A stretch of 64,000 nucleotides of DNA from Cohaesibacter intestini (GTDB taxonomy: Bacteria; Pseudomonadota; Alphaproteobacteria; Rhizobiales; Cohaesibacteraceae). Below the pieces are notes generated by a model. The model made no database searches. It was not told the origin of the DNA and saw only the letters and a list, made by a program, of their open reading frames with translations. The translations under genes and the position numbers were made by a program. Within the stretch, counting starts at the first letter, position 1. Every line of letters begins with the position of its first letter. The stretch lies in assembly GCF_003324485.1 (NCBI RefSeq), contig NZ_QODK01000002.1, forward strand, positions 186,001 to 250,000. The letters are read 5' to 3'. Positions 19,939 to 33,487 of this stretch are shown here, in pieces.

Positions 19939-20238
19939 TCAGTCCGCAGCCGTCGAAAATTGGCGCTCGAGAGGAATGGCATCAAAAGGCTGAATGGTTG
20001 GTCCGTCCGACCGGATACGCTCCCGCAGCCGGTCTGCCACAACGTGGCCATTGTCCTGTTTGCTTACCGGGATGACATCAAGACTGACAATCATATCGCT
20101 CTGCTCACCAAGCACGGTCTGAGCCTCATCGCTCGTGTCATAAAGCCGCGCGCCCTGAAGATCCTCGACCCAGTGATGCGCTGCCGCCAGATACACGACG
20201 ATGCCGTCAAGCAATCTATTGCCCGTTACAACAAACAT
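19939..20238 (-). CDS. DUF2849 domain-containing protein
   Basis: A 99-residue protein beginning MFVVTGNRLLDGIVVYL, with HHWVEDLQGARLYDTSDEA next, the usual DUF2849 pattern. These small proteins are encoded immediately before cysI in many alphaproteobacteria, often between cysG and cysI; their role is unknown. The start at 20238 has GGGAAG eight bases upstream and matches the family beginning, while a longer frame reaching 20406 has no such support. It is the first gene of the sulfite reductase operon here. cysG itself is not present. Confidence 0.85.
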   Translation of the reverse strand: MFVVTGNRLLDGIVVYLAAAHHWVEDLQGARLYDTSDEAQTVLGEQSDMIVSLDVIPVSKQDNGHVVADRLRERIRSDGPTIQPFDAIPLERQFSTAAD

Positions 20239-20471
20239 GCTGTTTCTTCCCAATGGTATGGCAGCCGGACAAGCGGCGCCCAAATACGGTGAAAAGGGGT
20301 ATTGAGTATCCCCTGCTGTCATTGTTGAACGAGATTTAATGGCTTTCCCACGCAGCAACAATGAAGAGACATGCGAAAGGCGAAAGCGATTTACCCACGC
20401 GGGCAAAGATCGAACGCCGTGCTACAGCAGACAGTCGGGATAAGATTTTATTCTATTCCCCCACACCACGA
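20239..20471. other. Leader of the cys operon
   Basis: About 230 bases upstream of the DUF2849 gene, between it and the terminator of the next minus-strand gene. It should hold the cys operon promoter. I see no riboswitch core, small gene or clear palindrome. Confidence 0.35.
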
Positions 20472-20513
20472 AAAAAGGCTTCCCGGCACGATGCGCCAGT
20501 GGGAAGCCTTTTT
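20472..20513 (-). terminator. Strong terminator of the 973-residue protein gene
   Basis: A 13-bp perfect stem (AAAAAGGCTTCCC with GGGAAGCCTTTTT) and a 16-base loop, with A/T runs at both sides, 46 bases after the stop codon. Confidence 0.88.
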
Positions 20514-20559
20514 CCTCTCTATCGATTCTGCCAAGCAGGCAGAGCCTTGTCCTTGAAGC

Positions 20560-23481
20560 TTATTGCCGCAACAATGGAACAACGTTGCGTGGATTGATCT
20601 GATCGCGCAATGGGCGCAAGCTCACACATCCCCGTCCCGGCAAGAATCTTGCGCCGGGTTTACAGGCACAGGAGGTCCGCGATGTCTTGCGCATATTGGG
20701 ATAGCGGCAAACGCACTTCTCGCCCCGCTTGATGGCCGTTGTTCCATCACAGCGCGGTGGCTGCGGCACGACCACCTTCTGACAGCCACGACCGGGCACA
20801 AACTTCAAGCCCGGCAGACAGCGACATGCGGTGTTTGACGTTTTCGCCATGAAGGGATAGCGACAATCGCAACGGTTGTTGCGCAACACTGTCGTACGGG
20901 CATCACAGCGTGGGGGCCGTGGTCGATCCAACCGCACACATCCCCGGCCCGGACGCAACTTTGTTCCACGCGGGCAGGCACAAGCCACCGGCGACCGGCG
21001 CACCATATTGTCATAGCGGCAAAGGCAGGCCTTGCCCCGTTGAATGGTCGTCGCCTGATCACAAGCAACCGGTTGTGGCCTTGGCCGATCTACGCACCCT
21101 CGTCCCGGTACAAGGCGACTGCCGCGCGGGCAGACACATTGGGTCGGCGAGATCTTGCGCATGCCATCATAGCGGCAGGAACAACGGTTGCCCCGCGGCC
21201 GGGTTGAGCGCAAATTACAATCCGGCAATGGCACCACAATCGGTGGATCAAAAACCTCCGGGGGCTCAACGACTGGCGGAGGAGGCAGAGGAACACCCTG
21301 AAGGGGTACATCCACACAGGACTGCCTTGAGCGATCCCCAATCGGCGTTCCGGCATTGGCAAACAACGCTGGTGACAAGTCGCCTGTAACAGCCATTCCC
21401 AGCAAAGCCTGCAATTCTTCAAGGCCTCGCCGCGTATTCGGTCCCATCCGGCCATCCACCCCACCGGAGCGGATACCATTGGCTTCGATCAGCATCTGAG
21501 CTGCCGTCACTTGCTGGACCGGTGTCTGGCCCACACCCAAGAGAGCACAATTGTCAAACCGGCGATCTCGCGGTGGGGCTGCCAGTCGCATATCAAGGGT
21601 CAGGCGATGGGTTTCCCCCGCCTCAATCCGGATTCTATCCGTAAGGCAAAGGACCGACGCGCCAATCACCCGAGAACAATGCCAGTCTCGCCCACGCGAC
21701 ACCCGTACATCAATCACATCGGTGCCAGAGAAGCTGTCGGTGACCATCAGACTGTCCGTATAGGCCCGATCGCCGCGGTTGGTCACCGCGATCGAGAAGG
21801 CACAGCGATAGGTGCGGTTTGCGCGATCAAGAGAACAATCACTGATGCTGCGCTTCAGAATGCTCAGCTCAGGTGGTGCAGGCTGGTCGGGCAGCGGGAT
21901 GACCGGCGGCTCCTCTTCCCTCTGTTCGGGCTGCTCTTCTGGTGGCTGATATCCGATGCCCTGACAACCATAGACTTCCACATCCCCGACCAAACCACTG
22001 TCACTGCGATCGGGATAGGCGCCGTCATAATCGATGAAATGGCTCTTCCATGGCGGGCTATTCTCTTGCCGGGACAAATCGAATGGCTGCGCTTGCACCC
22101 CATCAATCCGCATCGCACCACCGTCTTTCAGGCGCTCATCCAGATTGGGCGCAAAGCGCAGACGTTCACCACTGCTCCAGAGCACATTCTGGCAGGCATC
22201 TGCGTCCATCTTGCCGTTTGCGTCATAGTCGGGGCCCAGCGCCACACCACCGGTGCCATTGCTATACTGACTGGCAAAGCCGATGGCATAGGGTTCGGGC
22301 TGAGCCCGCCAGCTGTCATCACGCTCTTTGACGAAGCGCAGCACCTCAGCCCGCCGCGCCTTGGTCACCTTGGAAAAATCGAACGAGCCGACACGCTCCC
22401 CACGCTGGGCAAGGATCATCGAACCATCAGGCCCAAAAGCAATATCAGTAATCTCAAGCGGCGGAACTCCGTCCGGCAGGATCAGTTCTTTGCGGGCATC
22501 AAACAGGAAGCCGCCATCACCGGGCGCAATACCAACCGACCAGATCTCCGGCCCGTCAGCCACGGCATAAAAGAGCCGCCCCTCATGGGCAGCCAAGCCC
22601 CAGACCCGTCGTTCTGCAGGGGCGAAGTGCCAACTTTCCGGATCCTCAACATCAAAGCTGGGATCACGAATATCAAGACGCGCCGTGCCTTCATGGGGCA
22701 CCTTCGGCAGCCCGGCCAGAGACCGCGCTGTGGTTCCGTGGTCAAAGGCCTCGAGCACATTGCCATCCATATCAAGGCGGAAAATCATCCCCGTTTCCAG
22801 ATCGGAGACGAAAAGTTGCTGGCTCTGTTTGTCAAAGGCAATATTGCCAAGGGCAGGCCCAGCATTGGCTTTGCCCGCCAGCTTGATCGAGGCAAACAGC
22901 GAGACTTCTCCGCTCACGCCATCCACTTTCCAGACGCTGCCCGGCGCATTGTCCGGGTTCGGTCCAAACAGCCCTTCCATAAAACGGGCATCAGCTCGCC
23001 CGGTCAGCAGCTTGTCTTCCTGCCCGTCTCCATTCTGGTCCGCACCGGAGATCGGAAGACCATAAGCAGACGTCGCCGTCAGATAAAGGCTGGGCGCCTC
23101 TGCGTCATCCAGTGCTATACCGAAAATCTGCCCGACCGCTCCGGCCGGAATTGTGACATAAGCGGGTCGTTTGGCTTCCTTGCCTTCAAATGCCCCCAAA
23201 CCATCAATCGGAAAGACGGACACCGAGGCCCCTTCGAGATTGATAAAGCCGTCCCCGCTTTCATTGGTGCCCGAAAAGCCAGACATCACAAGGCTCGGCC
23301 CCTTGAGAAATCTGTCATTTCCTGCCAACTGGCTGCCTTGGGTCCCAACCGTTACGGTTAAATCTTCGGGCATCGCGACCGGATCACGCGCCTTTGCTCC
23401 GGTGGAAACGATCGTCATGCCGAGAAGGAATGACGCAAGTGTCATCCAGCGCGACGCTCTATAGCAACTGATAATACACAT
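20560..23481 (-). CDS. Large secreted multidomain protein with four cysteine-rich repeats
   Basis: A 973-residue exported protein of unknown function. An N-terminal signal peptide (about residues 1-31, ending STGAKA) precedes a 480-residue region of beta-propeller/NHL character. After a Pro/Glu-rich linker, residues 534-657 resemble a DUF11-type surface domain. Residues 658-708 (MLIEANGI, GGVDGRMGPNTRRGLEELQ) look like a peptidoglycan-binding fold. A Pro-rich linker leads to four tandem repeats of exactly 52 residues at 755, 807, 859 and 911. Each has about six cysteines with the pattern C-x8-RG-x-x-CxCRY-x-x-M, C-x-C and PGRGC. GAGGGGAG precedes the ATG. The gene is divergent from csgF-csgG and may be a wall-linked partner of the curli fibre; that role is inference. 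Confidence 0.8.
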   Translation of the reverse strand: MCIISCYRASRWMTLASFLLGMTIVSTGAKARDPVAMPEDLTVTVGTQGSQLAGNDRFLKGPSLVMSGFSGTNESGDGFINLEGASVSVFPIDGLGAFEGKEAKRPAYVTIPAGAVGQIFGIALDDAEAPSLYLTATSAYGLPISGADQNGDGQEDKLLTGRADARFMEGLFGPNPDNAPGSVWKVDGVSGEVSLFASIKLAGKANAGPALGNIAFDKQSQQLFVSDLETGMIFRLDMDGNVLEAFDHGTTARSLAGLPKVPHEGTARLDIRDPSFDVEDPESWHFAPAERRVWGLAAHEGRLFYAVADGPEIWSVGIAPGDGGFLFDARKELILPDGVPPLEITDIAFGPDGSMILAQRGERVGSFDFSKVTKARRAEVLRFVKERDDSWRAQPEPYAIGFASQYSNGTGGVALGPDYDANGKMDADACQNVLWSSGERLRFAPNLDERLKDGGAMRIDGVQAQPFDLSRQENSPPWKSHFIDYDGAYPDRSDSGLVGDVEVYGCQGIGYQPPEEQPEQREEEPPVIPLPDQPAPPELSILKRSISDCSLDRANRTYRCAFSIAVTNRGDRAYTDSLMVTDSFSGTDVIDVRVSRGRDWHCSRVIGASVLCLTDRIRIEAGETHRLTLDMRLAAPPRDRRFDNCALLGVGQTPVQQVTAAQMLIEANGIRSGGVDGRMGPNTRRGLEELQALLGMAVTGDLSPALFANAGTPIGDRSRQSCVDVPLQGVPLPPPPVVEPPEVFDPPIVVPLPDCNLRSTRPRGNRCSCRYDGMRKISPTQCVCPRGSRLVPGRGCVDRPRPQPVACDQATTIQRGKACLCRYDNMVRRSPVACACPRGTKLRPGRGCVRLDRPRPPRCDARTTVLRNNRCDCRYPFMAKTSNTACRCLPGLKFVPGRGCQKVVVPQPPRCDGTTAIKRGEKCVCRYPNMRKTSRTSCACKPGARFLPGRGCVSLRPLRDQINPRNVVPLLRQ

Positions 23482-23911
23482 TCGATATTGCTCCCCTCAT
23501 CAGGCATCCTCACAACTGGTCAAACCAGCCCTGCCTGTTTGCGCTCCGAACAAGCGAAATATTGCCCCGGATCGCACCACACGCACGCATTGTACCATTC
23601 GATAGAGGCAGAATGAGGCAGCAAGCCAGAAAAAGACAAACTCTGGCAGTCATCCACCGCAAGTAGGCTAGTTTTGGCCTTTTCATGCGCTCCAGACCGT
23701 CAACCGTTGCAAGAAAATCACGCCCTAACCACAATCTGTAATTTATTAGATTGACTAGATACAACCAGTACACTAACAATCCTTTAAGTTGTATACAAAA
23801 TTTAATTCAACTTATACGAATTACGCCTCATCAGGCCAGACTTAAGTGACCAATGACAGGCAATTCCAGAGCGGACTGCCATCCAGAGTGTCATTGACCG
23901 GGGGAAAAACA
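23482..23911. promoter_or_regulatory. Divergent control region of the curli locus
   Basis: 430 bases between the 973-residue protein gene and csgF, AT-rich from 23700 to 23830. It contains an inverted repeat CAATCT-N10-AGATTG at 23733-23754 and a 10-bp palindrome TTGTATACAA at 23789-23798. Either could be an operator for a biofilm regulator. A TTG-initiated frame at 23510-23779 on the minus strand has no ribosome-binding site and no recognisable product, so I do not call it. Confidence 0.5.
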
Positions 23912-24352
23912 GTGAAAAGACTTTTCGTTCTTGTCGGCATTCTCGCCGCAACTGGCCCCGTCGGGGCCGCCGAACTGACCTACACGCCGGTCAACCCATC
24001 CTTCGGGGGCAACGCGTTGAACTCATCACACCTAATTTCAACCGCCAATGCCCAACGCACGGCAACTGCCAGTGACGCCAACAGCAACGCGTCGAACAAC
24101 ACCACTTCTTCGTCCAGTTCCACGTCAGCTGATCTGTTCGTCCGGCAGCTGGAGGGTCGTCTGCTCTCGGCTCTGGCAAGCCAGGTGACCGAAGCAATCT
24201 TCGGCGACAACCCGCAAGACAGCGGCACGGTGACCTTCGGCGACACCGAAATCACCTTCAACCGTGGCACCGACTCCATTTCGCTGGTCATCACCGATTT
24301 TACCGATGGCACCGTGACGGAAATCGAAGTCCCGCAACTCGTCTCCAACTAA
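23912..24352 (+). CDS. csgF: Curli assembly protein CsgF
   Basis: Curli secretion component that docks on the outside of the CsgG pore and helps fibre nucleation. The 146-residue protein starts at a GTG (23912) preceded by GGGGG. It has a signal peptide (VKRLFVLVGILAATGPVGA) and the diagnostic CsgF N-terminal motif AELTYTPVNPSFGGNALNSS, known in E. coli to insert into the CsgG constriction. A Ser/Asn-rich linker follows, then a C-terminal domain (ADLFVRQLEGRLLSALASQV through VTEIEVPQLVSN). csgG begins six bases after its stop, so the two are translated together. Confidence 0.9.
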   Translation: MKRLFVLVGILAATGPVGAAELTYTPVNPSFGGNALNSSHLISTANAQRTATASDANSNASNNTTSSSSSTSADLFVRQLEGRLLSALASQVTEAIFGDNPQDSGTVTFGDTEITFNRGTDSISLVITDFTDGTVTEIEVPQLVSN

Positions 24353-24358
24353 GAGCGG

Positions 24359-25432
24359 ATGAATTTCATGCCTATTGTTGACACTCTCCGCGCTTCAGCT
24401 CGCGCCTCTATGCGCAAAGGCCTGATCGCCACGTCCACCCTCTGCCTTGTTGCATTGACAGGCTGCGCCTCTCATCAAACCCTGATGACCGAAGAGCCGA
24501 TTGTTGCGCAGATCACTCCGGTCAATCTCAAGCTGCGCCAGATCCCGCCACCGAAAAAGCGGATCCCGGTCGCCGTCTATGAGTTTCAGGACCAGACCGG
24601 GCAGTATAAGGAAGCCAAAAATTATCAGCAGCTCTCACGCGCGGTCACGCAAGGCGGCGCAGCCATCCTGATCAAGGCCCTTCAGGATGCGGGGAACCGC
24701 CAATGGTTTACCGTGATGGAGCGCAACCGGCTGGCCAATCTGCTCAAGGAACGTCAGATCGTCACCGAAATGCGCCGTCTTTATCGCGGTGAGACAAGAA
24801 TAAGCGCTCGCGCCCTGCCCCCGCTCAAACATGCAGCCATCATCATCGAAGGCGGCATTGTCGGCTATAACTCCAATGTCAATACGGGCGGCATCGGTGC
24901 GCGCTATCTCGGTATCGGGGCCGACACGAAATATTCCAAGGATGAAATCACCGTTGCGCTCAGAGCCGTCTCAACAAAAAGCGGCGAGGTGCTTGCAACG
25001 GTCACCGCCCGCAAGACCGTGGTATCGGTCGCCTTGCAGGCAGGCGTCTTCCGCTTCATCAAGCTTGATGAACTGCTCGAAGGGGAAGCTGGCATAACCA
25101 ACAACGAACCACGCCAACTGGCCGTTGAAGCAGCCGTTGAGAAAGCCGTTGAAGCGATGATCGTCGAAGGCGTCGATCTGGGCATCTGGCAGTTCCGCGA
25201 TCCGGATGATGGATTGAACTATGTGCGCACCTATCGCACCGGCAAGCAGGGTCTGGCAACCGATGCCATGGCGCTTGCCAAAGCCAGCCCGGAAACCGGA
25301 AGAGTTGCGTCCATCACCACAACGGTCCCGCGGACATATCGCCCATCCAAGGCAAAAGTAAAAAGACCCGTGAAGCAAAAAACAAGACGCCTTCCACCAC
25401 CTTATTCAAGCAACGAGTCTCCATCAGGGTAG
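24359..25432 (+). CDS. csgG: Curli secretion channel lipoprotein CsgG
   Basis: Outer-membrane lipoprotein that forms the nonameric export pore for curlins. Of 357 residues, the first 36 form a lipoprotein signal ending in the lipobox LTGC (Cys36). The CsgG domain is clear: RIPVAVYEFQDQTGQYK, ALQDAGNRQWFTVMERNRLA, IIIEGGIVGYNSNVNTGGIG, DEITVALRAVSTKSGEVLAT and VFRFIKLDELLEGEAGITNN. A C-terminal basic, proline-rich tail of about 45 residues extends beyond the usual end. Starts at 24359, 24368 or 24410 are all possible; none has a strong ribosome-binding site, perhaps because of coupling to csgF. Confidence 0.93.
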   Translation: MNFMPIVDTLRASARASMRKGLIATSTLCLVALTGCASHQTLMTEEPIVAQITPVNLKLRQIPPPKKRIPVAVYEFQDQTGQYKEAKNYQQLSRAVTQGGAAILIKALQDAGNRQWFTVMERNRLANLLKERQIVTEMRRLYRGETRISARALPPLKHAAIIIEGGIVGYNSNVNTGGIGARYLGIGADTKYSKDEITVALRAVSTKSGEVLATVTARKTVVSVALQAGVFRFIKLDELLEGEAGITNNEPRQLAVEAAVEKAVEAMIVEGVDLGIWQFRDPDDGLNYVRTYRTGKQGLATDAMALAKASPETGRVASITTTVPRTYRPSKAKVKRPVKQKTRRLPPPYSSNESPSG

Positions 25433-25744
25433 ATTCGCACCTTAAATCTCAAGTTGCGTTAGGTTGCAGAACGAAAATCTGCTGCAGACTTTTTGTTTTA
25501 TATTAGAAAACATGACGCTTACGGCGATATTTAGCGAATTAATACAATAAGTTAACACATTAACCACTTGGTAACTTTTATATTGACTTGGTATCTTAAT
25601 GAATTATAAATGATTGCAATGTTGCCGATTACACAATCAGGTTGCAATCGAGTTTGACGATAGCATTGCACCAAGGGCTGGCTAAAGCCACGGGCGACAT
25701 GGGTGAAGCTCTTGAAATAGACATTTGATTTTGGAGACTTAATT
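25433..25744. promoter_or_regulatory. AT-rich leader of the first curlin gene
   Basis: 312 bases, markedly AT-rich between 25495 and 25620. A small hairpin (GCAGA and TCTGC arms at 25466-25482) followed by a T-rich tract to 25500 may end the csgFG transcript. The rest probably holds a separate promoter for the curlin genes, ending with GGAGA before the ATG at 25745. Confidence 0.45.
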
Positions 25745-27412
25745 ATGAAAAAACTTCGTTTGGCCCTTCTAGCGGCAACAGCAGGACTTTCGGTTGCTGC
25801 CTCCGCCTTCGCAGCAGACAACAATGCGACCCTCACGCAATCGGGCTCTGCAAACACCGCATTGATTGATCAGTCAGGTGGCACCAACAACGAAGCCTAT
25901 GCCCACCAGACCAACAATGGCGACACAAACTCCAACGCCCTGGAAATTCTGCAAAGCAGTCATGCGCATCAAAATGTTTTCAGCGTTGATCAGAACGCGG
26001 TGTTGGGCACAGGCGCCAACAGTGCAACTGTGACACAGAATGGCGGTTACTCGAACAGTGTACGCAACCTCGATCAGACCACGGGCACTGGCGCGGGCAA
26101 CAACACCACGACCATCACCCAATCGGGTTACTCCAACGACCTGAACAGCGTCACGCAAACCAACACCGGCGATGATGACAACAGCATCACCGCAACGATC
26201 ATTGGTGGCAGCAATGGCTCGACCTATATTGGCGGTGTGAGAGAAACGCTCGACGGGTATGCAGCGAATGTGGGGGTTACCAACGGCGAGCTTATTCAGA
26301 ACGGCACCGGCAACACGATTGAGCTGAATGTCAATGGCGACCAGAACGATTTCGGCGTCACCCAAGAAGGCGGCGTCAACACGCTGAGCGCTCTGAACAT
26401 CACCGGCAATGCGAACGAGTTGGGCGTATATCAGAACAGCAACCTTGCAACGGGCAATGATCTGACCATTGAAGGCATCGTTGGTGACAGCAACAATATC
26501 GGCGTGCTGCAGGATGGCACCAACAGCAACCTTGCCAACATCAACCTGGGTGGCACAGCCGGATCACCAAGCAACAGCAACAATGTCCTGCTGCGGCAAA
26601 GCGACGGCACCATTGCAGACATTGACATCACCAGCGGTGACTCCAACGATATCAATGTCTTGCAACAGAATGCATCGACCACGGACAACGACGTCGATGT
26701 CGATGTCGCAGGAAGCTCGAATGATCTCGACATTCTTCAGGATGGCAACGGCAATGCGGCCACCACGAATGTTGCGGGCAACAACAATGGTGTTGACGTG
26801 GTGCAAGATGGCAACGCAAGCACGACCCTCGCAAGCATCACAGGCGACCTGAACCTGATTGACGTTGACCAGATCCGCGATGACATGACAGCAAACCTGA
26901 CCGTTCTGGGTGGGTCCAACGACTTGACCGTCTACCAGAATGGGAACCACAGCACGACCAACATGGATGTCACCGGTTCCAGCAACACGATTGACGTCAA
27001 TCAGGGTCCACACGATTCGCAAACGGCAGACATTGCTGTTACCGGCAACAGCAATGACTTCAGTGTCCGTCAGTTTGGCAAACGCTGGAACAATGCAGCG
27101 ATCACCATTTTCGGCAACAACAATGGCGCATCCCCTGTTGGTTTCACCGGAGATGCTTCAAGCACCGGCCTCACCACTGGGTCTTTCGTTCAGAACGGCC
27201 AGTCCAACACGGCAACGTGGAATGTCGGCCTCTCCGGCGATCTGAGCAACAACAACCTTCTGGCCATGTCTCAGGTTGGTGACTCCAACAATGTTCAGGT
27301 CGACATCTCTGCTGGCAGCACCAACCAGGTGGCAATTGCGCAGAATGGCAACAACAACAATTCTGTCGTAAGCCAGGTTGGCTCCGGCAACATCGTTGGC
27401 ATCACTCAATAA
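25745..27412 (+). CDS. Curlin-repeat amyloid subunit, very large (555 aa)
   Basis: Probable main fibre subunit, exported through CsgG. After a signal peptide (cut near AFA-A, residues 23/24) the whole protein is Asn/Gly/Gln/Thr-rich curlin repeats without cysteine. The ends are classical, with conserved glutamines 11 residues apart (32, 43; 533, 544, 555). The middle is different: single conserved glutamines at 285, 307, 332, 354, 376, 398, 420 and 443, about every 22 residues, in units like GSSNDLDILQDGNGNAATT. At 555 residues it is over three times the length of E. coli CsgA (151). GGAGA precedes the ATG. Assigning it as the CsgA counterpart is inference from position and repeats. Confidence 0.85.
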   Translation: MKKLRLALLAATAGLSVAASAFAADNNATLTQSGSANTALIDQSGGTNNEAYAHQTNNGDTNSNALEILQSSHAHQNVFSVDQNAVLGTGANSATVTQNGGYSNSVRNLDQTTGTGAGNNTTTITQSGYSNDLNSVTQTNTGDDDNSITATIIGGSNGSTYIGGVRETLDGYAANVGVTNGELIQNGTGNTIELNVNGDQNDFGVTQEGGVNTLSALNITGNANELGVYQNSNLATGNDLTIEGIVGDSNNIGVLQDGTNSNLANINLGGTAGSPSNSNNVLLRQSDGTIADIDITSGDSNDINVLQQNASTTDNDVDVDVAGSSNDLDILQDGNGNAATTNVAGNNNGVDVVQDGNASTTLASITGDLNLIDVDQIRDDMTANLTVLGGSNDLTVYQNGNHSTTNMDVTGSSNTIDVNQGPHDSQTADIAVTGNSNDFSVRQFGKRWNNAAITIFGNNNGASPVGFTGDASSTGLTTGSFVQNGQSNTATWNVGLSGDLSNNNLLAMSQVGDSNNVQVDISAGSTNQVAIAQNGNNNNSVVSQVGSGNIVGITQ

Positions 27413-27433
27413 GCGACAATCATCTGACCTTCA

Positions 27434-27459
27434 GGTCGGGCGGGATTTCCTGCCCGACC
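27434..27459 (+). terminator. Hairpin between the first and second curlin genes
   Basis: The 8-bp GC-rich arms GGTCGGGC and GCCCGACC enclose a 10-base loop, followed by ATTTTGATTGATTT. Its position 22 bases after the stop fits a partial terminator or a 3' mRNA stabiliser. Confidence 0.65.
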
Positions 27460-27508
27460 ATTTTGATTGATTTACTATCTTTTCTTTTTCTTTGCTTGAG
27501 GTGACATC

Positions 27509-29050
27509 ATGAAACGGCCAAGTGTTATCCGCCTGACATCCGCCATGGCGCTCCTCATGCTCGCAAGCCCCGCCTTGGCCAATGACAATGAAGTCTATAT
27601 CGGCCAGACCGGTGTCACCAACAGGGTCGCCATAGACCAGTTGGGTGAGGCCAACATGGTCGGTGCGAACGACAGTTCCCTTTTTGTCTTGCAGGATGGC
27701 AGCAACAATGACGTAGCGGTCACCCAGACCGGCTATGCCAATCAGGCAGGCGCAACAGGTAGCGCAGGCGCCGTGGGACTTCAAGGTCTCTATCAGACGG
27801 GCGACAGCAACAGCCTGACCATCACCCAGCAATCCACCGCCAGCACGGGGCTGAATGTCATTGGCGCGGTATCACAAGTCGCTCCGACCAGTCTCGCTTC
27901 CGGGCCAAGCAACAGCCTGACCATCACCCAGACCGATGCCTCGATCCTTGGTGCCGTGGGCAGTGGCAATGGCGACAGTGCTCACACGGTGGGCGAAATT
28001 CTCCAGATCCAGACCGGCACCAGCGCCAACATAGCGACCATCTCTCAGTATGACGGATCCAATGGAGGCGACACGGGCAACCGGGTGCAAATTCTGGTTC
28101 AGGACGGCACCGACAATCTGGCGACCATCACCCAGCAGGAAGCCGCCAATCAGGTGGGCGATCTGCGCCAGTTCGGTTCGGGCAACGGGGCAACCGTCAC
28201 CCAGGAAGACGGCACCGACAATCGCCTTGACACTTTTCGACAGGATGGCACGGGCAACCGGGCGATCGTCACCATGACCGGCTCGCGCAATCTGGTTTTC
28301 TCCCTGTTGCAAAATAACGCATTGATGGGCGTGGTCGGCAATCTTGCCACCATCACGCTGGGAGGCGATGACAATGGCGGTGACGGAATGGGAGGGCTTG
28401 GGCAGTTTACCAACAATGTCACCCGACTGCTGCAAGTGGCCCAGGCAGAACTGCGCCAACTTGGCGACGAAAACATGCTCAATTTCGTAACATCCGGCGC
28501 ATCCGTCGCCAATCTCTATGGCTTTGTGCAGGATGGCGATGGCAATGTCATCAGCGGAACGGTCGACGGTGAGGAGAATGAAGTCGCCTTGCTGCAGATC
28601 GGCGATGGCAACCGTTATGATTTTAGTCAGACCGGAAATCTCAACGCCACTGCCGTTTCGAGCCGCGGCGACAATAACAGCCTTTTCATCGAACAGGACG
28701 GCAATGACAACATCATTGACGTGTCCTTTGACGGTGGCGTCGCGCCAATCACCCGCAGCAATCAGAATAATGATCCCGCCTTGGGTGGTTTTTCCGAACT
28801 GGCTCTTTCCCATGCTGGCAGTCTTGAGCCCGGAGACATCCGACAATCCGGCGATCAGAACAGCATCCGGATTGCCACCGAAAACAGTAACTTTAACAAA
28901 TTTGCCACCTCCCAGAATGGCAATCAGAATGTGATCGAAGGCGAAATTATCGGCGACAACAATCAGGCAGTGGTCATTCAGTCGGGCGATTTGAACTATA
29001 CCCTTCTTCGCCAGACCGGCAATTACAACCAAGCTGTCATCCTGCAGTAG
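27509..29050 (+). CDS. Curlin-repeat amyloid protein (513 aa)
   Basis: Second large exported curlin-repeat protein. The signal peptide ends at SPALA, near residue 24. The repeats are irregular, with canonical pairs of glutamines 11 residues apart (33/44, 62/73, 198/209, 221/232, 363/374, 491/502/513). Other stretches are spaced by 22 (341/363, 374/396) or broken by glycine-rich insertions, such as GGDDNGGDGMGG near 285. It ends QTGNYNQAVILQ, the usual final strand. No cysteine is present. It may be a co-polymerising or spacing subunit; the sequence alone does not tell. It is downstream of the hairpin at 27434-27459. Confidence 0.82.
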   Translation: MKRPSVIRLTSAMALLMLASPALANDNEVYIGQTGVTNRVAIDQLGEANMVGANDSSLFVLQDGSNNDVAVTQTGYANQAGATGSAGAVGLQGLYQTGDSNSLTITQQSTASTGLNVIGAVSQVAPTSLASGPSNSLTITQTDASILGAVGSGNGDSAHTVGEILQIQTGTSANIATISQYDGSNGGDTGNRVQILVQDGTDNLATITQQEAANQVGDLRQFGSGNGATVTQEDGTDNRLDTFRQDGTGNRAIVTMTGSRNLVFSLLQNNALMGVVGNLATITLGGDDNGGDGMGGLGQFTNNVTRLLQVAQAELRQLGDENMLNFVTSGASVANLYGFVQDGDGNVISGTVDGEENEVALLQIGDGNRYDFSQTGNLNATAVSSRGDNNSLFIEQDGNDNIIDVSFDGGVAPITRSNQNNDPALGGFSELALSHAGSLEPGDIRQSGDQNSIRIATENSNFNKFATSQNGNQNVIEGEIIGDNNQAVVIQSGDLNYTLLRQTGNYNQAVILQ

Positions 29051-29212
29051 AAACAGGTTGCAACATAGACAATATAATCGCCTTAGTTTAATCTAAGATT
29101 CACTCTGCAACCAACAAAGCGGCCATATATGTCGATTTCTTGCGGCGAATAAGAGGCGAGTAAAGTTTTCCTGTTCTGATGGTTTCAAACGACACCAGCT
29201 CAGGATGAGGAA

Positions 29213-29722
29213 ATGATCAAACAAATGGTTATGGCTGCCGCTTTGCTAGCATCAAGCACGGTGGCCCATGCAACACAGGACGACAATGTCATCACGTTGC
29301 TGTCCGCGACCAATCAGGAAGGAAACACGCTTGACCTGATTGTAACTGGAGACACGAACAGTCTGGTTCTCGAACAATCGGCTGCCATGGGACTTGGCCA
29401 AGGCAATCTCATGGAGATCACGATCACCGGCAACAACAATGGTGGTGCAATTGGCAGCGCCTTCAGCGGCATCACCCTTGATAGCGGACTGGAGCCCGGT
29501 CACTTGCAGCAAACAGGCGCTGGCAACAGCATGCAGATCGACATTCAGGGATCTGACAATCTGTTTGCGGCCAGGCAAGACGGCCAAGGCAACAGCCTGA
29601 CCGCCACCATTCAAGGTTTTGACAATCAGGCCGCCATTCTGCAGGTCGGCCAGAACAACCACGCAAGCATCAGTCAGATGGGCAATGGCAACGCCATAAG
29701 TATCTCGCAACGTTCGTTCTGA
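29213..29722 (+). CDS. Short curlin-repeat protein, CsgB-like size (169 aa)
   Basis: Exported protein with a signal peptide cut near AHA-T (residue 20). It has curlin repeats ending with two glutamines 11 residues apart (AAILQVGQNNHASISQ and MGNGNAISISQ) and a short RSF tail. The length is close to E. coli CsgB (151), and a basic residue just after the last repeat recalls the C-terminus of CsgB (VTQR), the surface nucleator. On these grounds a nucleator role is possible but only inferred. GAGGAA lies directly before the ATG. The next curlin gene begins 30 bases after its stop, so these two are surely co-transcribed. Confidence 0.78.
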   Translation: MIKQMVMAAALLASSTVAHATQDDNVITLLSATNQEGNTLDLIVTGDTNSLVLEQSAAMGLGQGNLMEITITGNNNGGAIGSAFSGITLDSGLEPGHLQQTGAGNSMQIDIQGSDNLFAARQDGQGNSLTATIQGFDNQAAILQVGQNNHASISQMGNGNAISISQRSF

Positions 29723-29752
29723 GATGTGCCCGTCACAAACGGAGAGCGGCAC

Positions 29753-30484
29753 ATGAAGATACGATCGCATACGACATTGGGCATCACGGCCGCAGCCATT
29801 TGCGGTCTGACACTCCTTCCTGCGCATGCTGGCGACAGCAATGTCCTGATCCTGAAACAGGAAGGCACAGCCAACGAGATTTTCGTTGACCAACAAAACG
29901 CCAACAACAGCCAAGTTGGCGGTGTAGATCTGGTTCCCGGTCTCACGCTTGAAGACACGACCTTCAATCGGATCGACCTGACCACCAATGAGGCCGGGGC
30001 TCTTGCCAACCCGGCCACCCAGATCGGTACGGGCAACACGGCTAACATCACTCTCGAGGGCGAAGGCGGCGTGGTCTTTCTCCAGCAGGGTGGCCAGATC
30101 ACCGACAGCAACAATGATGCCACGGTTGCCATCAATTCCGGCCTGACCGGTGGTTCCTTCGCCGCCATTCTGCAAGATGGCAGCAACAACACAGCCAACG
30201 CCACCATCAATGGCTCCTTGTCCGAGGTCAACGTCCTGCAGCAGGGCAACAGCAATCAGGGCACAGTTGCGATTGGCACCACCGGCTTGCCGACAGACAA
30301 TGTCCGCGCGTCCCTCACCCAGAATGGCGACAACAACAACACCGAGCTTCAGGTGACGGGCATCAATGCCGGTGAATATAGCTACACGGTGAATGGCAAC
30401 AACACTTCGACGACCGTCCCGGCACTCATCGTGACCAATGGGGCCTCTGTCAGCATCACCCAATCGACCCTGACATCCCGCTGA
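29753..30484 (+). CDS. Curlin-repeat protein (243 aa)
   Basis: Exported protein with a signal peptide ending LLPAHA (residue 26) followed by Asn/Gly/Thr-rich repeats. Like the middle of the 555-residue curlin it shows single glutamines 22 residues apart (AAILQ then VNVLQ) with N-N-x-A-N-A-T strands between. It ends ASVSITQSTLTSR, a basic tail as in nucleator-type curlins. The ATG at 29753 has GGAGAG upstream and is preferred to a start nine codons earlier. It could be a minor or capping subunit. csgH follows after 45 bases. Confidence 0.78.
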   Translation: MKIRSHTTLGITAAAICGLTLLPAHAGDSNVLILKQEGTANEIFVDQQNANNSQVGGVDLVPGLTLEDTTFNRIDLTTNEAGALANPATQIGTGNTANITLEGEGGVVFLQQGGQITDSNNDATVAINSGLTGGSFAAILQDGSNNTANATINGSLSEVNVLQQGNSNQGTVAIGTTGLPTDNVRASLTQNGDNNNTELQVTGINAGEYSYTVNGNNTSTTVPALIVTNGASVSITQSTLTSR

Positions 30485-30529
30485 TTCCGATCAGAGGTCA
30501 ATTGCATTGTCATGAGAGAAGGATGCGAC

Positions 30530-30949
30530 ATGAAAGTTCCCCAGTGGCTCACCTTGTCCTTTTTGGGCTTGCCCCTTGCAGCCACGGGCGCGGTTGAGGC
30601 GCGCTCGGGCATCACTGCGAATGATGTAAGGCAGGCGGACATTCAGCTTTTCATGGTGAAAGACGTGCTGACGATCAGCCCGCTTGTTTCATTGACCAAG
30701 GGCGACGCCTTCTTGGCAACGACGCTCGAACTGATGGTCGAGAAAAAGGGCCCAAGCGGCTCCGTTGCCAGCCGTCAGGCAGGCGTTATCGAACCGGGAC
30801 AGACCGAGGGAAACGCAATTGCCCGCATCCAGTTGAAAGTCACCGATGAGGATGCAGTCACCGCCACATTGACGATCCGATCCGGCCAGAAAATCCTTGC
30901 CCAGAGACAACGGCTTTGGCCCGGTGGCAAGTCTCTATCGCCCCATTGA
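30530..30949 (+). CDS. csgH: Curli amyloid-inhibitor protein CsgH (CsgC-type)
   Basis: Small periplasmic immunoglobulin-like protein that in the CsgC/CsgH family blocks premature curlin polymerisation. The 139-residue product has a signal peptide (MKVPQWLTLSFLGLPLAATG). A beta-rich domain follows with the family pattern IQLFMVKDVLTISPLVSLTK, EKKGPSGSVASRQAGVIEPG and ARIQLKVTDEDAVTATLTIR. This agrees with alphaproteobacterial CsgH and with the SGSS/T-Q-SG core of CsgC. AGAAGGA precedes the ATG. Its place directly after four curlin genes supports the assignment. I judge it by motif memory, so a structure-based comparison would settle it. Confidence 0.8.
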   Translation: MKVPQWLTLSFLGLPLAATGAVEARSGITANDVRQADIQLFMVKDVLTISPLVSLTKGDAFLATTLELMVEKKGPSGSVASRQAGVIEPGQTEGNAIARIQLKVTDEDAVTATLTIRSGQKILAQRQRLWPGGKSLSPH

Positions 30950-31033
30950 TTGCCTTTTCCAATCGGCCCGCTCCTGCTTTGGCCAGACCAGATTAGCCCG
31001 TTTTCACCTCAATGTTTGAAGTCTGATAGACCA

Positions 31034-31768
31034 ATGAAATACTTTATAAAACGCTTCGCCTCTTGCTTGCCTGCCATTGCATTGATCCTGCTGGGTCAGC
31101 TACCAACCCCATCCGTGGCCCAATCCACCAACGCGGTGGCGCAGGCCTTTGCGGGGGACTGGATCACCTATGACCAGCGCCATGCCGCTCAGGGGCAGTG
31201 TATTTTGTCTTTCTCAGCCACAGAGCAAGACGCGCTCTATCCCATCAAGCCGCAAAACTGCATCAATCAGTTGGCAAGCATTCGCGGCTGGACGCTGAAA
31301 AACAATCAGTTGATCTTCGTTGACGACAAAAAACTCCCTCTGGCAGCGGTTGGTGGCAACCAACAGCGCATTTCCGGAAGGTTCCTGCAAAGTGGAATGC
31401 CCCTCATTCTGGAAAAGGCAGCTTTGGCACAACAGGTCACAGCCTCCAGAAAGGCTATTCGCTGTTCCTATCTTGGCTATGGCCAAACCTGTGCCAAACC
31501 GCGACAATTCGCCCCCCCAGCGATGGGCACCGACGGAACGGCCGACATCAAGGCACTGGTCAATCTCAACGTCCGCAGCGAGCCCCGCAACAATGCCACG
31601 GTCAAAGCAGTCCTCAAACCGGAGAGTTGTGTCAAGGCAACCTTCTGCAGTCTCACTTCTGACGGTCTTTGGTGTCGCATCAAACTCAATGATGGCATCG
31701 GTTGGATCAAGAAACAGGCCGTCAGGCAGAAGCAATGGCCGATCCTGACCTTCGTCAATGGCTGCTGA
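31034..31768 (+). CDS. Secreted protein with Inh/AprI-like and SH3 domains
   Basis: A 244-residue exported protein. A signal peptide ends near SVAQ (residue 30). Residues about 38-130 (AGDWITYDQ, CILSF, KPQNCINQL, GWTLKNNQLIFVDDKKLPL) resemble the Inh/AprI metalloprotease-inhibitor barrel with its paired cysteines. Residues about 175-235 (ALVNLNVRSEPRNNATVKAV, GLWCRIKLNDGIGWIKK) are a bacterial SH3 domain of the kind that binds cell wall. It follows csgH by 85 bases on the same strand. Whether it protects fibres from proteases, anchors them or is unrelated cannot be told. The start at 31034 gives the signal peptide; the upstream in-frame extension is not convincing. Confidence 0.72.
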   Translation: MKYFIKRFASCLPAIALILLGQLPTPSVAQSTNAVAQAFAGDWITYDQRHAAQGQCILSFSATEQDALYPIKPQNCINQLASIRGWTLKNNQLIFVDDKKLPLAAVGGNQQRISGRFLQSGMPLILEKAALAQQVTASRKAIRCSYLGYGQTCAKPRQFAPPAMGTDGTADIKALVNLNVRSEPRNNATVKAVLKPESCVKATFCSLTSDGLWCRIKLNDGIGWIKKQAVRQKQWPILTFVNGC

Positions 31769-31903
31769 TAGGCCGGGGCAGCGCCTTTGAGCCAATCGAC
31801 GGGCGCAATCGAGTCATCTAAGAAGGGGAAATAAGGCAATCCGGGTAAGCATACTTGCGTCTCGGTCGAGCCGACCGTCCCTTTCATAGATGATTGACGC
31901 CCC

Positions 31904-32596
31904 GTGACAAATCCAGCCTCTCCCCTTGCTTCCATCACACTCGCCTGCCCTTGGCTGACGATCCAGTTTTCCCGGACCATGCGTGTGTTGAGTTGGGCCA
32001 TCGACCGCCCCGGCCTTGTCGAGGCCGACCGTATCCTGTGGCGAGAAGTCAAGAACCATGATTTGCCGGTTGACCTGGACGTGCGCACATGGCTGCAGCA
32101 TGAGCAGGACAAAAACGGTTTCACCAATGCAGTCACGATGCTCACCTCACGCAGCATCACTCGATATGAGATTGCGTCTGCAGAAGTGGACGAGGTATCA
32201 GCGCTGTGTGTCGCAACAGTCGGTTTGTCGAACGCAGAACGGATCGGCGCGCGGGTTGATCATCAGGACAAGGACTGGGGTACCATCAACATTGCCGTGC
32301 TGCTTAGCGAAGGCCTGACCAAAGCCGCCATGCTCGAAGCCAGTTCGATTGCCACCCAAGCCCGGACAGCGGCCATTTGCGACGCCCACTATGCGATCCC
32401 GACCGGCCTTGCGACGGGCACAGGAACGGATTGCATCGCCATTGCCGCCCCCATCGGCGACACTTGCTTTGCCGGCCTTCATACGGCCATTGGCGAAGCC
32501 ATCGGCAAGTCTGTCTATGACGCAATCGCCAAGGCTGTTGCCGACTGGATTATGGAAAATGATCCCGCCAACAAAGGCACAAAGGCTGTGTCCTGA
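31904..32596 (+). CDS. cbiZ: Adenosylcobinamide amidohydrolase CbiZ
   Basis: Cleaves the aminopropanol side chain of adenosylcobinamide to adenosylcobyric acid, a salvage step towards vitamin B12. The 230-residue protein shows the family motifs PWLTIQFSRTMRVLSWA, MLTSRSITRYE, ATVGLSNAERIGARV, GTINIAVLLSEGL and ATGTGTDCIAIAAP. The start is a GTG at 31904 because PWL-to-LSWA belongs to the conserved domain; the ATG at 31979 would cut it off. I see no cobalamin riboswitch in the 135 bases upstream. No other B12 gene lies in the window. It sits alone between the curli locus and lexA. Confidence 0.88.
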   Translation: MTNPASPLASITLACPWLTIQFSRTMRVLSWAIDRPGLVEADRILWREVKNHDLPVDLDVRTWLQHEQDKNGFTNAVTMLTSRSITRYEIASAEVDEVSALCVATVGLSNAERIGARVDHQDKDWGTINIAVLLSEGLTKAAMLEASSIATQARTAAICDAHYAIPTGLATGTGTDCIAIAAPIGDTCFAGLHTAIGEAIGKSVYDAIAKAVADWIMENDPANKGTKAVS

Positions 32597-32676
32597 CTGG
32601 CACCCTCCCACCTTGAACAGCAGCGCAAGGCAAGAAACCGCGGTTACATGCGACGAATGCAGAATTTCCCCTTGCG

Positions 32677-32691
32677 GAACACAGAGGGAAC
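32677..32691. promoter_or_regulatory. LexA-binding SOS box
   Basis: GAAC-ACAGAGG-GAAC exactly matches the alphaproteobacterial SOS operator GAACN7GAAC (GTTCN7GTTC on the other strand). It lies 83 bases before the lexA start, which fits autorepression. A degenerate second copy, GTTC-N7-GTGC, lies at 32703-32717. Confidence 0.85.
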
Positions 32692-32773
32692 AGATATGGT
32701 TTGTTCGTGATTTGTGCCACAGATGTCTCGCTTGATTCTCAGCCGGGCATTTTGCTTCAGACAGGAGACAGCA

Positions 32774-33487
32774 ATGCTTACGCGAAAACAGCATGAACTT
32801 CTGATGTTCATCAACGAGCGCATCAAGGAAACCGGCGTTCCTCCTTCCTTCGACGAAATGAAAGATGCCCTCGATCTGCGTTCCAAATCCGGCATTCATC
32901 GCCTGATCACGGCGCTGGAAGAAAGAGGCTTCATCCGCCGCCTGCCCAACCGCGCTCGCGCACTCGAAGTGCTCAAGCTGCCAGAAGCGAACAGCCCTAC
33001 TCTTCATTCCGCCACCCGTGGTTTCTCACCCTCCGTCGTAGAGGGCGGTTTGGGCAAGAAGAAAACCCCTCCCGCCAGCAAACCGGTTGCCGACGAACAA
33101 AGCAGCGGCGTCTCTGTCCCTGTCATGGGCCGCATTGCTGCCGGTGTTCCCATTTCCGCAATCCAGCATCAGTCTCACACCATATCCGTGCCTGTTGACA
33201 TGCTGCGCGGTGGCGAGCATTTCGCGCTTGAGGTGCGCGGCGATTCCATGATCGAAGCGGGCATTCTTGATGGCGATACCGTCGTGATCAAGAAGTCCGA
33301 CGATGCGGTCTCCGGTGATATCGTTGTCGCACTTGTTGATGATGAAGAGGCGACCTTGAAGCGCCTGCGCAAGAAAGGCGGCTCCATCGCACTGGAGGCA
33401 GCAAACCCGGCCTATGAAACCCGGATTTTCGGACCGGATCGTGTTCGGGTGCAGGGCAAGCTTGTTGGCCTAATGCGTCAATACTAA
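32774..33487 (+). CDS. lexA: SOS repressor LexA
   Basis: Represses DNA-damage genes and cleaves itself when RecA is activated. The 237-residue protein has an N-terminal winged helix ([19 protein letters not shown] to [11 protein letters not shown]), then a linker, and a C-terminal S24 peptidase. The Ala123-Gly124 cleavage site lies in RIAAGVPI, Ser158 in GDSMIEAG and Lys196 in EEATLKRL. The long linker is typical of alphaproteobacterial LexA. AGGAGA precedes the ATG at 32774. A perfect SOS box lies upstream, so autoregulation is expected. comEC converges from the other side, as in relatives. Confidence 0.96.

Follow-up and report, generated by a model that had tools for sequence, protein, structure and literature searches.

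How very long, aggregation-prone curlin subunits survive in the periplasm and are delivered to the CsgG pore in a genome without csgE is the question raised by a curli (functional amyloid) locus of Cohaesibacter intestini, located in a window of 64,000 nucleotides (contig NZ_QODK01000002.1, positions 186,001 to 250,000, forward strand). Eight genes on one strand, namely csgF, csgG, four curlin-repeat genes (here Cur1 to Cur4), csgH and a gene for a secreted protein with Inh-like and SH3-like parts (here InhSH3), face a divergent gene for a protein of 973 residues, all at the place given in a first-pass annotation of the window. The analysis presented here points to InhSH3 as, apparently, a previously unremarked and obligatory member of one curli type. 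CsgE-less curli are widespread in Alphaproteobacteria, and an additional gene that is always present and whose fold can be read offers a direct test of how such systems work.

InhSH3 and its association with curli

Within the genus, csgF was present in 14 of 18 genomes and InhSH3 in exactly those 14, being found in none of the four csgF-negative genomes (Fisher p = 3e-4; kinship is not corrected in this or the other Fisher tests given here) and in none of the remaining 47 of the 61 relatives searched. A CsgG search of the species genome collection returned 26 loci, one of which (L025) is apparently the same contig as genus genome G015. Using profiles built from the genus, csgF was detected in every locus of this search. 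Of the 24 further loci (L026-L049) all but one contained InhSH3 (23 of 24), the sole locus without it being L032, of which the sequence stops about 170 bases past csgH. L050 and L123 stop at contig ends. With the genus included, every locus of this one CsgG type that could be assessed (37 of 37) had InhSH3, the loci beyond the genus having been chosen by likeness to the window CsgG, which means that one CsgG clade was sampled. In nearly all loci it followed or adjoined csgH or Cur4 on the same strand, the gap measuring -86 to 147 bases, and clusters that were rearranged (L028, L031 and L049) still kept it.

Among 608 genomes drawn evenly from the class (210) and the order (398), none outside the genus contained a full-length, high-scoring InhSH3. 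Weak relatives scored at most 75.7 bits, compared to 266-298 bits in the genus, and were located away from curli genes; the order search scored at most six candidates per genome, and 17 genomes were re-searched with all candidates scored. InhSH3 was absent from nine assessable genomes carrying csgF and csgG of other types (G126, G155, G243, G417, G389, G362, G528, G542 and G565). This indicates that InhSH3 marks one curli type and not csgF generally, and the idea that it might mark csgF-type curli as a whole is thereby ruled out. In G318 the cluster reaches the contig end, and InhSH3 was not found elsewhere in that assembly. A literature search reaching few subscription journals found no paper tying an Inh/SH3-type protein to curli, and no Inh/SH3 gene is mentioned in the portions of text available from two earlier descriptions of alphaproteobacterial curli (PMC3521004 and PMC3806328).

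Fold of InhSH3

The open reading frame originally assigned to InhSH3 starts at TTG 30950 (272 residues), while relatives indicate a start at ATG 31028 (246 residues). In an alignment of 24 relatives, which are 26-56% identical to the window protein, six cysteines are retained, as are several tryptophans and glycines, and a GxW motif is conserved. AlphaFold2 modelled the protein with a mean pLDDT (predicted local distance difference test) of 91, with a barrel from roughly residue 43 to 130 and an SH3-like domain from roughly residue 172 to 244. According to Foldseek, the only hit below 0.001 was the protease inhibitor U-Omp19 (E 6e-6), followed by the Inh structures 6iy4 and 1smp_I (TMt about 0.6) and by lysostaphin-type SH3b domains; a profile search of the sequences in the Protein Data Bank likewise returned U-Omp19 only (E 2e-7). 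The window protein reaches 27.0 bits on SH3_3 (PF08239), of which the cut-off is 27, and 23 of the 24 relatives match this family; Inh (PF02974) is matched at E <= 0.01 by 21 of the 24 (best 1.1e-9). By eye, the protein has a plain Sec signal and no lipobox. It resembles the U-Omp19 and Inh-AprI family in its N-terminal barrel and its conserved GxW and cysteines, and differs from it in the C-terminal SH3b domain, the apparent lack of a lipobox and its location in a curli cluster. On the predicted structure, InhSH3 would be an Inh/U-Omp19-like barrel joined to an SH3b domain, and a putative inhibitor.

The cassette, its subunits and the hairpin between Cur1 and Cur2

CsgG, CsgF and curlin-repeat subunits, by which curli (type VIII secretion) is recognised, are all present in the window (Table 1), csgH adjoins the curlin genes in a genome without csgE, as in CsgH-type curli, and every curlin repeat detected genome-wide falls inside this cluster. 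Curlin_rpt (PF07012) exceeded its cut-off in three of the four curlins (555, 513 and 169 residues); Cur4 scored 14.7 bits, under the Pfam cut-off of 20.7. QxGxxN motifs number 10, 17, 4 and 5 in Cur1 to Cur4, as against 0.68, 0.57, 0.21 and 0.23 expected from composition shuffles (maximum 3 in 1000 shuffles of Cur4), and these counts, far over the shuffle means, indicate that the repeats are not due to chance. The Cur4 reading frame comprises 243 residues from ATG 29753 or 252 from GTG 29726, and the true start of CsgF is probably downstream of GTG 23846. Curlin repeats begin shortly behind the signal peptide in the window subunits, without an obvious N22 tail; N22-like tails have been described as the exception among curlins (Sleutel 2023, PMC10192328).

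Table 1. Features of the curli locus, in coordinates of the window, with the evidence for each.
Feature	Position	Strand	Evidence
973-residue secreted mosaic protein, PG_binding_1, neighbour	20560..23481	-	PF01471 4.9e-6
csgF	23846..24352	+	PF10614 1.1e-28, 100.5 bits; 14/18 genus genomes
csgG, outer-membrane lipoprotein export pore	24359..25432	+	PF03783 6.7e-62, 209 bits; LTGC lipobox by eye
Imperfect stem and T-run 3' of csgG	25466..25497	+	sequence
Cur1, long curlin, 555 residues	25745..27412	+	PF07012 2e-16, 7 stretches
11-bp GC-rich hairpin between Cur1 and Cur2	27434..27459	+	compensatory changes
Cur2, long curlin, 513 residues	27509..29050	+	PF07012 2.6e-22, 9 stretches; 14/14 genomes
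Cur3, short curlin, 169 residues, candidate nucleator	29213..29722	+	PF07012 4.2e-8
Cur4, degenerate curlin, 243 residues	29753..30484	+	QxGxxN motifs; kept in all 14 genomes
csgH, CsgC-like periplasmic amyloid inhibitor family, 145 residues	30512..30949	+	NF041112 37.5 bits (cut-off 35); PF10610 (Tafi-CsgC) 25.7 bits (cut-off 25)
InhSH3, secreted Inh-like barrel and SH3b	31028..31768	+	Pfam, structure model, distribution

The absence of csgE is not an effect of the window, as PF10627 gave no match at E <= 1 in the whole 99%-complete genome. No csgD adjoins the cluster; the CsgD model has been reported as unspecific (Dueholm 2012, PMC3521004). Like enterobacterial csgBAC/csgDEFG, the locus has a CsgG pore, CsgF, curlin repeats and a CsgC-like chaperone; unlike it, there is no csgE and no division into two operons of the csgDEFG/csgBAC kind, and the subunits measure 169-555 residues instead of about 150. 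The large subunits and the absence of csgE, which had been contrasted with enteric curli, were indeed observed, yet they are no distinguishing novelty, because long and multiple curlins with CsgH and without csgC, csgD and csgE have been the described alphaproteobacterial state since 2012, the number of CsgA/B copies reaching six and the subunit length 529 residues (Dueholm 2012, PMC3521004). Pseudovibrio was reported to have csgF, csgG and three curlin genes (Bondarev 2013, PMC3806328), and curlin subunits in general carry 4 to 62 repeats each, and a single genome can have as many as 30 CsgA copies (Sleutel 2023, PMC10192328). In its core, the locus is therefore a curli-type amyloid cassette of known alphaproteobacterial kind and not an expanded one-off. 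It shares csgF, csgG, several long curlins, csgH beside the subunits and a cluster without csgC, csgD or csgE with the systems of PMC3521004 and PMC3806328, and adds to them a constant InhSH3 and a constant short Cur3/Cur4 pair. The 145-residue gene belongs to the CsgC/CsgH amyloid inhibitors (Taylor 2016, PMC4838910), from which InhSH3 differs by its fold (Inh barrel and SH3b) and by being mostly not basic outside the genus.

Wherever csgF is present in the genus (14 genomes), the gene order is csgF-csgG-Cur1 (1 to 4 copies)-Cur2-(Cur3)-Cur4-csgH-InhSH3, Cur3 not being found in G006 and G016. Cur2 (512-527 residues), Cur3 (mostly 169) and Cur4 (240-282) keep a steady length, whereas Cur1 is variable in size (444-639 residues), copy number and sequence. 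In one locus (L111, G013) an in-frame TAA splits one Cur1 copy into 409 and 138 residues, and curlin-repeat genes distant from the main cluster were observed in four genomes (G002:C1:192946, G009:C18:29392, G006:C1:4789789 and G016:C1:23317). The same cassette was found in Phyllobacteriaceae, Rhizobiaceae, Devosiaceae, Aurantimonadaceae, Roseobacteraceae and Paracoccaceae, thus across two orders (Rhizobiales and Rhodobacterales), which contradicts the earlier proposal of a lineage-specific fibre. In Rhodobacterales the long curlins are mostly divergent from csgF, and csgF-csgG-Cur3-Cur4-csgH-InhSH3 stays together. This is the constant module, usable as a marker for this curli type, with the long curlins (one to four Cur1 copies, Cur2) varying in number and place.

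As regards the division of labour among the subunits, Cur3 scored 38.6 bits on the CsgB model and 22.2 on the CsgA model, far under the equivalog cut-off of 165, and its near-constant length is as reported for CsgB. Its AlphaFold2 model is a solenoid of regular strands at residues 97-167, the N-terminal part being weakly predicted, and Foldseek matched it to the E. coli CsgA fibril only at E 0.017. These sequence features are suggestive of a nucleator and no more. Two points weigh against the assignment: Cur1 likewise scores better on the CsgB than on the CsgA model, and what indicates the role is the constancy of length together with a modest profile difference. Cur3 as a proven CsgB is not established, given scores so far under the cut-off and the fact that all of 19 relatives match both models.

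At the place 3' of csgG, most relatives show perfect stems with T-runs, a clear intrinsic terminator. A second hairpin occurs at the Cur1-Cur2 position in 11 of the 14 genus genomes and in G318; it was not found there in G001, G004 and G007, which have similar stems between their Cur1 copies. The covariation set comprised 14 sequences, including the stems between Cur1 copies of G004 and G007. As its rows were selected as hairpins, 100% pairing is given by construction, and the evidence lies in the covariation (0.498 compared to 0.247 in shuffles, with both-side changes in five pairs) and in the shuffled-spacer control, in which 0-1 of 500 spacers reached the hairpin. No Rfam match was obtained within 20000-33000. 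The T-run is weak in most of these hairpins and strong in G318, and a weak run would fit partial termination or protection of the 3' end of the Cur1 message. The hairpin between Cur1 and Cur2 likely sets the subunit ratio, probably through more Cur1 transcript than downstream transcript.

Proposed mechanism, rival readings and the divergent gene

The explanation that we consider somewhat more likely than not as a whole combines a curli cassette with export by CsgG and CsgF, seeding by Cur3, a wall-held guard in InhSH3, a ratio-setting hairpin and an unrelated divergent gene. From what is known of the families, Sec would carry the curlins into the periplasm, CsgH would hold them unfolded there and CsgG together with CsgF would export them; the fibre may be seeded or capped by the short, constant Cur3, perhaps with Cur4, and its bulk would consist of Cur1 and Cur2. 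With less certainty, InhSH3 would be a dedicated curli factor tethered to peptidoglycan via its SH3b domain, and its Inh-like barrel would shield waiting subunits from periplasmic proteolysis. A wall-held periplasmic subunit guard is probably what InhSH3 is. The more specific proposal, that of a dedicated factor acting as peptidoglycan-held protease inhibitor or chaperone and enabling the export of very long amyloid subunits without CsgE, is put forward tentatively, at somewhat less than an even chance.

Several observations weigh against the explanation as a whole. The window protein scores 20.0 bits on Inh (PF02974), below the cut-off of 25. Its isoelectric point is basic in the genus and 4.5-9.2 elsewhere, so that the electrostatic mechanism of CsgC/CsgH is no general fit; a basic, CsgH-like electrostatic inhibitor was accordingly rejected as a general description (range 4.5-10.1 overall). 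The nine csgF-positive alphaproteobacterial genomes of other types show that curli as such does not need InhSH3, the sample of InhSH3 loci was drawn by CsgG similarity and is a single CsgG clade, and operon linkage inside one clade can last through descent. Common descent of linked genes is also what would be expected if InhSH3 were a housekeeping envelope protein, co-inherited with the cassette and without a curli role, and weak Inh- or SH3-type relatives do exist away from curli. We regard this as quite unlikely, considering that InhSH3 is lost wherever genus genomes lack curli and that neither rearrangement nor divergence (26-56% identity to the window protein) has separated it from the cluster. 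A replacement of CsgE, in which InhSH3, without inhibiting proteases, would work on the periplasmic side of CsgG as a holdase or an adaptor for secretion, accords with the lack of csgE in the genome, with the occurrence of InhSH3 throughout this CsgG type and with its barrel, a small beta fold like those of other curli chaperones. Other alphaproteobacterial curli without csgE are however also without InhSH3, and its top structural match is a protease inhibitor, which makes this alternative unlikely, if a little less so than the housekeeping one. About as improbable as the latter is an exported or leaked InhSH3 that protects fibres outside the cell against proteases of the matrix or the host, in the way that Inh-family inhibitors act on serralysin-type enzymes: the fold matches Inh inhibitors, the Serratia metalloprotease-inhibitor complex 1smp among them, and GxW and the cysteines are conserved, whereas the plain Sec signal read by eye comes with no signal for export, the cell wall is the location suggested by the SH3b domain and mature curli are very resistant to proteases.

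A lineage-specific fibre with the 973-residue protein as surface partner, as first annotated, appears very improbable. The protein is a mosaic of a conserved N-terminal stretch some 450 residues long, PG_binding_1 and Cys-rich C-terminal repeats, and its family, widespread in the order, has no name beyond PG_binding_1. In its favour, the gene borders the cluster in divergent orientation in a single subclade of the genus (window, G006, G012, G015 and G016); these five loci form one CsgG clade (96/87 support), which makes the adjacency a local trait. It occurs in five of the 14 curli-positive genus genomes (absent from nine), and in two of the four curli-negative ones (G010 and G017). Outside the genus 17 genomes have it, and curlin repeats are present in just one of them, G032. 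It shows no association with curli (Fisher p = 1.0 in the genus, p = 0.40 in the 61 relatives). The partner role was therefore rejected, and the gene is an unrelated neighbour, a bystander, whose exclusion removes a misleading candidate. Of the strict co-occurrence of flanking genes with curlins, named beforehand as what would define a new assembly set, only that of InhSH3 has held, and the several subunit genes with an extra secreted protein remain from the proposed fibre once the divergent gene is taken out; independence from curli genes in relatives, named beforehand as telling against flanking proteins, eliminates the latter and spares InhSH3. The curli-free genomes G010 and G017 (L104 and L105) carry the divergent gene in the vicinity of cysI, with lexA on its other side in G010, an arrangement that resembles the same site minus the curli cluster.

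Apart from the cassette, short CsgF-like proteins, whose match to CsgF is confined to 40-50 positions at its N terminus, were observed in G025 (L064), G027 (L065), G284, G376, G379, G396, G410, G564 and G604. The one in G025 is encoded near apparent ABC-transporter and membrane-fusion genes, in a locus in which no CsgG was found.

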